Source: Sandaracinobacter neustonicus (GTDB lineage: Bacteria; Pseudomonadota; Alphaproteobacteria; Sphingomonadales; Sphingomonadaceae). From it: 64,000 nucleotides of DNA. Below are positions 23,221-25,472 of the stretch, piece by piece. How positions within the stretch are numbered: the first letter of the stretch is position 1; each line of letters starts with the position of its first letter. Made by a program: the position numbers and the translations under genes. The notes under the pieces are model-generated. The model was not told where the DNA came from and did no database searches. It saw only the letters and a list, made by a program, of their open reading frames with translations. Location: contig NZ_VFSU01000031.1 in assembly GCF_006385875.1 (NCBI RefSeq), forward strand, positions 1 through 64,000. The letters are read 5' to 3'.

Positions 23221-24117
23221 TCAACGCGGCAGATACAACACCGGATCCAATGTGCGTCGGCCTTGTCGCAGCTGGAAGTGGAGTTGCGGTTCGTTGGCGG
23301 AGCCGCTGGTGCCGGCGCGGGCGATGGGTTGGCCGCGTTGGACTTTGGTGCCGCGGTCCACGAGGGCGTCTTCGAGGTGGCCGTAGGCGCTGACGGTGCC
23401 GCCGGGGTGCCGGATCAGGATCATCAGGCCGAAGCCGGTGATGGCATCGCCGACATAGACGACTTCGCCGTCTGCGGCGGCGCGCACGGTCGCGCCTTTG
23501 GTGGTTTTGATGTTGATGCCGTCGTTGAAGCGCCCCCCGGCCTTGGGTCCATAGCGGGAGAGGATGACGCGCCCGTCCACCGGCCATGAGAGTTGCGGCA
23601 CGGTGGCGGCGGCTTGCGTGGGCGGCACTTGCGGGCGGGCGGCCCCGGCTTCGGCGGCGGGGGCGGAGCCGCTGATGGCGTCGTCCACGTCCAGCGCGAA
23701 GCCGCCCGAGGGAGCGGTTCGGGGCGGTGTGGGGCGCGACTGGCCTGTCGTGGGCTGGCCGGGCTGGGTGCGGCTGGCCTGTTGCGGCGGCGCGCCGATG
23801 GGAATGAACAGCGCCTGCCCCACCTGAATCACCGAATCGCGATCCAGCTTGTTGGCGGCGGTGATTCGCCCCCATGGCACGCCATAGGCCTTGGCGATGG
23901 CGAGGCCGGTTTCCCCGCGCTTCACGATGTGGCGGCGGCCGCCGGGCACGGCAGCGCCATCTGCCTTCACGGCGGCGGGCTGCCAGCCGGATTGCGGCGG
24001 CTTGGGCGGCGGGGCGGGCGGCTGCACGGTGATGCGGCTGGCGGACCGCTTGGGCGGCTGCGGGGTGGCGCAGGCGCTGATCAACGCGAGTGTCAGAAGG
24101 GGGGAAAGGCGTCGCAC
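23221..24117 (-). CDS. LysM and degenerate LytM (M23) lipoprotein, NlpD-like
   Basis: A 298-residue lipoprotein with signal MRRLSPLLTLALISAC and lipidated Cys16. A LysM peptidoglycan-binding domain lies near 60-108 (IVKRGETGLAIAKAYGVPWG). After a Pro/Ala-rich linker, an M23/LytM domain occupies 175-298 (WPVDGRVILSRYGPKAGGRF). The usual zinc-binding HxGxD is NDGIN here, and the HxH before the last strand is QLH, so the metal ligands are lost. Such proteins activate amidases at division, as NlpD does for AmiC. The sequence therefore predicts a regulator and not a hydrolase. Confidence 0.87.
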   Translation of the reverse strand: MRRLSPLLTLALISACATPQPPKRSASRITVQPPAPPPKPPQSGWQPAAVKADGAAVPGGRRHIVKRGETGLAIAKAYGVPWGRITAANKLDRDSVIQVGQALFIPIGAPPQQASRTQPGQPTTGQSRPTPPRTAPSGGFALDVDDAISGSAPAAEAGAARPQVPPTQAAATVPQLSWPVDGRVILSRYGPKAGGRFNDGINIKTTKGATVRAAADGEVVYVGDAITGFGLMILIRHPGGTVSAYGHLEDALVDRGTKVQRGQPIARAGTSGSANEPQLHFQLRQGRRTLDPVLYLPR

Positions 24118-24274
24118 GCTGTCAGCCTTAGAGGATCGGAAGCCGTCGGGGAATCCCGCTTGACCATACCGCAGCGCCGAAAAGAGTCGGAAATTTTTAC
24201 AGCGTGGCAGGGAGTGGGTGTCGGGATGGAGATTTAATATATTGAAATATAATGATAATTTTTAGTCTCGATGG

Positions 24275-24291
24275 TTGGCATACCATGTGCA
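24275..24291 (+). promoter_or_regulatory. Candidate sigma-54 promoter
   Basis: TTGGCATACCATGTGCA matches the sigma-54 consensus TTGGCAC-N5-TTGCA at nearly every informative position: GG at 24277-24278 and GC at 24289-24290 separated by exactly 10 bases. An A+T-rich tract, unusual in this genome, lies immediately upstream (24229-24268) and could bind an activator or integration host factor. No coding sequence starts downstream on this strand, but a terminator hairpin does follow. Confidence 0.45.
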
Positions 24292-24301
24292 TGTGCGAAG
24301 G

Positions 24302-24412
24302 GGCCGGTGGGGGCAATCTCCGGCACGAGACAGGTTCGTCACCAGCAACAGGGGTGGGCGATCAGGATCGTCACGGTGAGGCGGCAGCGCGGGGGCGCTG
24401 CCGCCTCCCTTC
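24302..24412 (+). ncRNA. Candidate sigma-54-dependent small RNA
   Basis: The interval from the expected start (12 bases after the GC element) to the terminator is about 110 bases, contains no plausible gene and ends in a perfect 11-bp hairpin (GGCGGCAGCGC at 24380-24390, loop GGGG, GCGCTGCCGCC at 24395-24405) followed by TCCCTTCGTTT. Promoter, short untranslated interval and terminator are the layout of a small RNA gene. There is no direct evidence of expression. Confidence 0.3.
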
Positions 24413-24429
24413 GTTTCAGGCCCCTGTTC

Positions 24430-24670
24430 GGGCGATTATAACCTTTGCAAACGTGCATCGCTCGCCCGTCCTCTGTCCCGCGCCCACCCTCTCTCCCCCG
24501 CTCAGGCTGAGCTTGTCGAAGCCCCGGACGTGAAAGCGCGACGGCTGAGCAGGGGGGCCTGCGCTACGGGCTTCGACAAGCTCAGCCTGAGCGGGACAGG
24601 GTAGCCTGAGAGGAAGGGAGGGGCGGCAAGCGCCGAAAAGCCGACGGGTTTGCAAAGACTGCAATCGCCC
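24430..24670. repeat. MITE-like element, copy 1 (241 bp)
   Basis: The left end GGCGATTATAACCTTTGCAAAC (24431-24452) and right end, read on the other strand, GGCGATTGCAGTCTTTGCAAAC, form terminal inverted repeats of about 23 bp. Inside is a pair of inverted D modules, GCTCAGGCTGAGCTTGTCGA (from 24501) and its complement near 24574-24597. The second copy is at 53468. The short direct repeat CCTTCGTTTCAGG lies outside both ends (24408-24420 and 24669-24681). There is no coding capacity, so if mobile it depends on a transposase elsewhere. Confidence 0.7.
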
Positions 24671-24713: not shown

Positions 24714-25472
24714 TCAGCCTTCCAGCTTCGCTGTCAGCGCCGCCATCGTCTGCCGGTGCGTCAGGTCCAGATGCAGCGGCGTGACAGATACGAAGCCGTC
24801 GCGGACCGCTTCCAGATCGCTGCGGTGGGCGGGCGTCTCCACTTCGCGGCCATAGCCGAACCAGTAATAGGGAAAGCCGCGCGGATCGGTGCGGGCGTCG
24901 ATCTTGATATGCCCGTAATCGCGGAAGCCCTGCTCCGTCACGCGCACGCCATGGGGCACGGCGAGCGGCGGAAAGTTGATATTCACCAGCACGCCGTCGC
25001 CCCATTCGGCTTCAGCCACCTTGCGGATGATGTCCGCGCCTGTCGCTTCGGCGGCGGCGAAGCTTTCCTTGCCGAAGCTGTAATCCGCCATCGCCTGAGA
25101 CAGCGCGATGGAGCGGATGCCCGCCAGCGTGCCCTCCATCGCGGCGGAAACCGTGCCGGAATAGGTGAGGTCCTCGGCCATGTTCGGCCCCCGGTTCACG
25201 CCTGACAGGATCAGGTCCGGCTTCAGCCCGCCCATCAGCTGCCCCAGCGCCATCATCACGCTGTCGGTCGGGGTGCCCGCCACCGCGAAGCGGCGTGGCC
25301 CCAGTTCGCGCACGCGGATCGGCTTCGTCAGCGTCAGCGAATGGCCCGCGCCCGATTGCTCCTCGGCCGGGGCGACAAACCACAGATCGTCGGAGACCTG
25401 CCGCGCGATCCGCTCCAGCGCGGCAAAGCCCGGCGCGTGAATGCCGTCGTCGTTGGTCAGAAGAATGCGCAT
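24714..25472 (-). CDS. surE: 5'/3'-nucleotidase SurE
   Basis: A 252-residue metal-dependent phosphatase acting on nucleoside monophosphates and polyphosphate under stress. The N-terminal [15 protein letters not shown] holds Asp8 and Asp9. Ser40 lies in EEQSGAGHSLT, and the Asn loop is SGVNRGPNMAEDLTYSGTVS. All metal-binding residues are present. The ATG overlaps the serS stop by one base (TGATG), so the two are translationally coupled. Length is normal for the family. Confidence 0.96.
   Translation of the reverse strand: MRILLTNDDGIHAPGFAALERIARQVSDDLWFVAPAEEQSGAGHSLTLTKPIRVRELGPRRFAVAGTPTDSVMMALGQLMGGLKPDLILSGVNRGPNMAEDLTYSGTVSAAMEGTLAGIRSIALSQAMADYSFGKESFAAAEATGADIIRKVAEAEWGDGVLVNINFPPLAVPHGVRVTEQGFRDYGHIKIDARTDPRGFPYYWFGYGREVETPAHRSDLEAVRDGFVSVTPLHLDLTHRQTMAALTAKLEG

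Follow-up and report, generated by a model that had tools for sequence, protein, structure and literature searches.

A predicted PrsR- and sigma-54-dependent small RNA gene behind a PEP-CTERM box in Sandaracinobacter neustonicus

The PEP-CTERM/exosortase programme is familiar from protein sorting and floc formation, and the sigma-54-dependent small RNAs, which include CrcZ and NrsZ as well as the Qrr RNAs and GlmY, are served by the regulators LuxO, CbrB, and NtrC. The PEP-CTERM box, as set out by Haft et al. 2006 (PMC1569441), comprises (i) a 17-nt motif 1 with a TTTACA end, (ii) a spacer 32 to 92 long (mean 62.8), and (iii) a sigma-54 motif 2; it was assigned there to the response regulator PrsR via its phylogenetic profile, and the stimulus of PrsK/PrsR was called obscure. 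Transcription of a PEP-CTERM gene is reported in PMC9850573 to depend on RpoN. Among small RNAs, quorum regulatory RNA is treated in PMC10162802 and the QseF/GlmY pair in PMC6075780. In Desulfovibrio vulgaris, the accessible portion of PMC3333781 reports that the response regulator DVU0679 targets Dv_sRNA2, and that DVUA0057, a PEP-CTERM response regulator, is bound at PEP-CTERM genes.

In the 64,000-nt stretch of S. neustonicus DNA analysed here (the window), the interval 24186-24416 carries what we read, with a probability of roughly 0.78, as a self-contained, PrsR- and sigma-54-dependent small RNA gene of the PEP-CTERM/exosortase regulon, a reading drawn from sequence comparison (Table 1). 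An earlier note on this DNA had proposed a small RNA behind a sigma-54 promoter whose GG and GC lie 10 bases apart, and the sequence checks out as described: TTGGCATACCATGTGCA has N10 between the GG and the GC and fits the TGGCAY-N6-TGCW consensus. Standing alone, the promoter match is weak evidence, since 20 of 100 shuffled windows contain at least one TTGGCAYN6TGCW match (the window itself has one, against 0.21 expected), which takes most of the force from the note's argument that a rare sigma-54 promoter before nothing is notable. The genome has an RpoN gene (PF04552 above cut-off). This rpoN is spread over two contig ends, namely the end of G000:C16 and the start of G000:C6 (L009 and L010), whose longest exact common stretch is 287 bases; these may be a single gene broken during assembly, or the genome may have the gene twice.

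Upstream of the promoter, in the region that the note had proposed to search for an activator site (24180-24268), lies GTCGGAAATTTTTACA, which its author had overlooked. This exact match to GTCGGN5TTTACA is the only one in the window, and the pattern is absent from 100 shuffled windows. The locus fits the published PEP-CTERM box in its TTTACA end and its spacer of 73 bp, the first bases of motif 1 having been compared with boxes of the genus only. The A+T-rich tract that the note had called out of character for this genome is real, the 45 spacer bases nearest the promoter being 80% A+T versus 33.5% across the window, but it is usual for a PEP-CTERM box, since 30 other boxes of this type average 55% A+T. 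The A+T-rich spacer is presumably a DNA-bending region.

Table 1. Features of the predicted RNA unit and of the genes flanking it, in window coordinates.
Feature	Position	Strand	Remark
LysM/M23 peptidase gene, divergent from the RNA, outside the unit	23221-24117	-	PF01476 and PF01551
Motif 1 of PEP-CTERM box, GTCGGAAATTTTTACA	24186-24201	+	Predicted PrsR enhancer site
73-bp spacer, A+T-rich towards the promoter	24202-24274	+	Presumed bending role
Sigma-54 promoter, TTGGCATACCATGTGCA	24275-24291	+	GG at 24277-78 (-24), GC at 24289-90 (-12)
Small non-coding RNA, ~115 nt	24302-24416	+	Predicted +1 to end of terminator tail
5' hairpin with G-rich loop, conserved GGGGGCAA	24303-24324	+	Energy and conservation
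First UCGUCAC, in linker, candidate seed	24336-24342	+	UCGUCAC in 6/6 members
Second UCGUCAC, context UCGUCACGG	24368-24374	+	UCGUCAC double in 3/6 members
Intrinsic terminator, 13-bp stem, GGGG loop, T-containing tail	24378-24416	+	Stem 24378-24407
surE, convergent with the RNA, outside the unit	24714-25472	-	NCBIfam SurE above cut-off

Because the -12 element lies at 24290, the transcript would start near 24302; both transcription of the unit and the position of +1 are predictions at this stage. The hairpin that the note had placed some 90 bp past the start, with 11 bp and a GGGG loop, is present, and is in fact a stem of 13 uninterrupted pairs (11 of them G-C) that begins 76 nt past the predicted +1 and is followed by CCTTCGTTT, a poor T-tract. 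None of 200 dinucleotide shuffles folded as well as the RNA (z -3.4). In the window, no Rfam family matched at its gathering score, and sub-threshold matches were limited to symR, on the terminator (E 0.067 and 0.2).

The unit was found in five relatives from Sandaracinobacteroides and allied Sphingomonadales, namely S. hominis, S. sayramensis, a Sphingomonadales MAG (D8), and two Sandarakinorhabdus MAGs (L107 and L108). In each of them, as at the window locus, motif 1 scores 11/11, the distance from motif 1 to the promoter is 73-75 bp, and GG-N10-GC is present. The note had made its proposal depend on this GG/GC spacing persisting in relatives that keep the interval; it is kept in all five, a comparison that is fair for the four found independently of the promoter, three through a DNA search and one (L072, on the same contig as L108) through a covariance model built from nothing but the RNA. 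The pattern that brought up L107 demands parts of the promoter and of the 5' loop, and only its motif 1 and the remainder of its RNA are independent. Run over the named genomes, this pattern gave 18 matches, of which the five relatives, L107 being the new one, have motif 1 at 11/11 and a 73-75 spacer; the other 13 score no more than 8/11 for motif 1. L107 is also matched by the covariance model of the RNA, and L072, which stood outside model building, has TTGGCACGACTCATGCA and GTCGGGAAACTTTACA at the expected places. The RNA-only model matches five of the six genomes of the genus at E 4.1e-9 or better; in the sixth, G199, which is 81% complete, it found no match. Across 397 genomes of the family, 37 reach E 0.01, and the five strong ones all belong to the same genus, counts to be read with four of these five having served for model building and with strict scan filters that lose weak matches. 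For 25 loci among the weaker matches, the 250 bp upstream contain no exact motif 1 in either orientation (0/25), and three of these loci have a sigma-54-like site. The predicted RNA represents a conserved family that is itself new, although of a kind already described; it has six known sequences, with lengths of 115, 105, 101, 89, 84, and 84 nt; UCGUCAC occurs in all six, singly in three and doubly in three.

Mean pairwise identity across the six members (15 pairs) is 0.33 upstream of the box, 0.39 in the spacer, 0.77 in the promoter, 0.45 from -11 to -1, 0.82 from +1 to the first UCGUCAC, 0.66 in the terminator, and 0.30 downstream, the promoter and 5'-loop values being inflated by the scan pattern for L107 only. 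That conservation sets in at +1 is what, in the sequence, argues best for the predicted transcript as a functional unit. Further, the terminator helix shows compensatory, both-side changes in eight of 14 pairs with 100% of cells paired, the alignment used for scoring having been fitted to the model and so biased towards it. The conservation that the note had proposed to look for, of interval and hairpin, is therefore present in five other genomes, with a covarying terminator stem. The 5' hairpin has 93.8% of cells paired and is supported by energy and conservation rather than by covariation, since its changes fall on one side only, with no compensatory pair. For the structure as a whole, the observed value was reached by none of 500 shuffles on four of five measures and by 45 of 500 on the fifth. 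A middle helix in the RNAalifold structure was unsupported and was set aside, as three of its five pairs vary only by breaking. It is conceivable in principle that the interval yields no functional RNA and is a decayed box whose PEP-CTERM gene has been deleted, the hairpin being a product of chance, given that a PEP-CTERM gene stands at this place in related genomes and that the sigma-54 match by itself is within chance; we regard this as very improbable in the face of 82% identity from +1 between flanks that are unconserved on both sides, of the compensatory terminator changes, and of a 73-75 bp spacing fixed in six genomes.

Coding potential was also examined. Open frames do cross the interval (mechanical ORFs 24252-24533 and 24271-24441), and a GTG 5-6 nt past +1 is common to the window locus and L107, as a gene for a short peptide would allow. 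Both ORFs begin upstream of +1, however, the peptides from the shared GTG differ, and the differences in RNA length are mostly not divisible by three. The six homologues have no shared start codon in the first 70 nt past +1, and five of them lack an ATG there. A small protein gene is thus the least credible of the alternatives, and the note's statement that no coding frame fits holds, in that no frame is shared by all six. Taken together, the promoter, the conserved block from +1, the covarying terminator, the absence of a shared ORF, and the presence of rpoN make a sigma-54-driven small RNA gene the best-supported reading of the interval, as the note had suspected from the promoter and hairpin.

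With respect to the genomic neighbourhood, all six loci have the divergent LysM/M23 gene upstream of the RNA, and four of six have surE downstream, a count in which surE is absent from the S. sayramensis stretch examined and the L108 contig ends before that point. Between the RNA and surE, window positions 24501-24597 hold an inverted pair, CTCAGGCTGAGCTTGTCGAAGCCC / GGGCTTCGACAAGCTCAGCCTGAG, with the look of a REP-type repeat. A PEP-CTERM gene adjoins the RNA in three loci (L107, D8, and L108), and their arrangements bear on whether the RNA might be a 5' leader in which the hairpin, as an attenuator, governs read-through into such a gene. In L108, a same-strand PEP-CTERM gene, 41% identical to its counterpart in L107, follows the RNA by ~30 nt without a box of its own, as a leader would predict. 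In L107, however, the RNA and the gene after it each have a complete box, which sets the RNA of that locus apart as a unit of its own; the adjoining gene of D8 is convergent and has its own box; and the RNA is conserved in S. neustonicus, S. hominis, and S. sayramensis, in whose loci no PEP-CTERM gene was seen past it. These arrangements make a purely attenuating role unlikely, and we hold out little prospect for it, although read-through into the PEP-CTERM gene may occur in L108.

The assignment to the regulon was examined across the six genomes of the genus, which hold 40 exact motif-1 sites against four for a reversed-pattern control. A sigma-54 site (score of at least 11.5 of 15, 25-105 bp past motif 1) follows 35 of the 40, with spacers of 40-81, and none was found past the exact motif 1 of L039, L118, L124, L129, and L139; the same criterion is satisfied at 214 of 2556 arbitrary window places. 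Only exact motif-1 sites are informative, since those with one mismatch have a sigma-54 site in one of 25 cases and show no enrichment in the S. neustonicus genome (43 versus 50 for the reversed pattern). Among the 35 complete boxes, 23 precede PEP-CTERM genes, five precede RNAs of the window type, four precede a small membrane protein (three by pattern, L038 by eye), two precede a second RNA candidate, and one, L131, is of unclear type. S. neustonicus itself has five exact GTCGGN5TTTACA sites, four of them with a strong sigma-54 site 40-75 bp on; besides the window locus, L040 precedes a gene for a PEP-CTERM protein (PEPxxWA-CTERM), L038 a small membrane protein, and L041 an apparently non-coding unit. 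PrsR (TIGR02915) exceeds its cut-off in all six genomes and in no control (n = 14), with matches under the cut-off in 12 of the controls, and the S. neustonicus protein scores 658.7 bits against a cut-off of 502.6. An exosortase was detected in four of the six genomes, that of S. neustonicus being XrtV, and was not detected in the other two. From the match of motif 1 to the published box, we infer that PrsR is the activator of the RNA promoter.

Two further kinds of unit were seen behind these boxes. The apparently non-coding unit of L041 (G000:C28:59088, minus strand) recurs behind a complete PEP-CTERM box in L154 (G163:C40:33735), with a hairpin GAGCUCUUCC..AGGGUUGGAAGAG followed by an CCCCGGGG...CCCCGGGG terminator, and a strict pattern finds it in two of the 397 family genomes. 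L038, L116, L132, and L161 encode a conserved small membrane protein of ~55 aa (..VWIIGLTLGVAAGAATAMLLMP..) behind PEP-CTERM boxes; in L038, its gene adjoins a TIGR03099 exosortase-associated decarboxylase, and the protein from this locus matches no NCBIfam model and, in Pfam, only YtxH below threshold.

In the mechanism that we propose for the small RNA gene, PrsR, as PrsR-P (partner kinase PrsK), would bind motif 1 and contact sigma-54 polymerase at 24275-24291 over the bendable, A+T-rich spacer. Transcription would yield an RNA of ~115 nt ending at the GGGG-loop terminator and produced alongside the PEP-CTERM surface proteins. This RNA would pair in trans with mRNAs, making contact through the UCGUCAC element(s), which are unpaired, and through the G-rich loop near its 5' end. 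Trans-acting pairing is the weaker part of the proposal, and we put it at about even odds. Slightly better than even, in our estimate, is the chance that PrsR boxes in the genus drive at least two RNA families, that of the window and the second, two-hairpin RNA of L041 and L154, and that commitment to PEP-CTERM surface protein and matrix production is thereby coupled to the post-transcriptional control of other genes.

Candidate targets were sought in several ways. CCGTGACGAWC occurs at 50 sites in the six genomes, some of them the RNA genes themselves; among the 48 examined (the other two being RNA genes), no site in a 5' UTR was common to orthologues, and the sites shared between genomes fell inside coding sequence, dnaK for example (by eye; L184 and L198). 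Pairing of the linker with the mRNA 5' regions of 24 of the 35 complete boxes gave a mean z of 0.08, the test leaving out eight RNA or unclear units and three boxes of the RNA-less genome; one of the 24, the PEP-CTERM 5' region of L138 (G200:C61), is an outlier that pairs with the linker of its own genome at a z of -4.96. The linker also has a 19-nt perfect antisense match to a cpaE/tadZ-like gene of its own genome (by eye; L024/L210, G000:C21:134521-134553), which was rejected as a conserved target, GTGACGAACC being absent from three orthologous loci. Across the prsR, exosortase, and small-membrane-protein loci, no common position of GTGACGA at start sites was seen. GTGACGA does lie inside prsR at the same position in three of six genomes (L142:2413, L143:2413 on the minus strand, and L146:2413), the genome of L146 having no detected RNA, and in L149 and L150 it lies opposite the exosortase gene, in antisense orientation. 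The recurrences in prsR probably reflect codon conservation, and those in the exosortase gene are read likewise; a feedback site in prsR is conceivable. At L142:2907, a repeat-like stretch, GTCACCCCGGATCAAGTCCGGGGTGACGA, also carries GTGACGA, the complement of UCGUCAC in the RNA.

That no pairing target emerged from these searches, and that both hairpins have G-rich loops, would suit an RNA that titrates an RNA-binding protein in the style of a CsrA sponge, which is the main rival to the small RNA gene read as a pairing RNA. The motif of CsrA is GGA in hairpin loops, and no conserved GGA is found in those of the RNA: the 5' loop has GGGGGCAA, the terminator loops are G-rich and variable (GGGG in the window, UGGG in D8), and a GGA occurs in the linker of some members only. 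Moreover, UCGUCAC is the most constant stretch outside the hairpins, as expected for a seed. We therefore consider a protein sponge improbable, if less so than the other alternatives, and retain the PrsR-dependent small RNA gene.

If this reading is true, the PEP-CTERM/exosortase programme has an RNA output, which would offer a handle on the cell changes that accompany surface-layer production, and PrsK/PrsR activity could be followed with the RNA as a compact reporter. Other exosortase bacteria may likewise have overlooked RNA genes, marked by motif-1 sites with no gene behind them. Within the literature searched, seen in part and with most subscription papers outside it, we found no description of a non-coding RNA under PrsR.

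Compared with known systems, the locus is closest to the PrsK-PrsR-sigma-54 regulon of PEP-CTERM boxes as given in the available part of PMC1569441, which it resembles in its TTTACA motif 1, spacer range, motif 2, and PrsR, and in the company of genus boxes most of which precede PEP-CTERM genes. The boxes described there lie upstream of protein genes, whereas the window box would drive a predicted non-coding RNA. In D. vulgaris, as far as PMC3333781 is available, the regulator that targets a small RNA differs from the PEP-CTERM one, whereas the window RNA is predicted to be under the PEP-CTERM regulator itself. With the Qrr and GlmY small RNAs, it shares a short non-coding unit, a -24/-12 promoter, an upstream activator site, an intrinsic terminator, and a regulator of the NtrC family, as well as the promoter and terminator of its own that make such an RNA an independent unit, L108 with its boxless gene being the exception; the activator of those RNAs is another one. 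The proposed non-coding arm of PrsR may accordingly be likened to the Qrr RNAs, which couple LuxO to the quorum-sensing genes.
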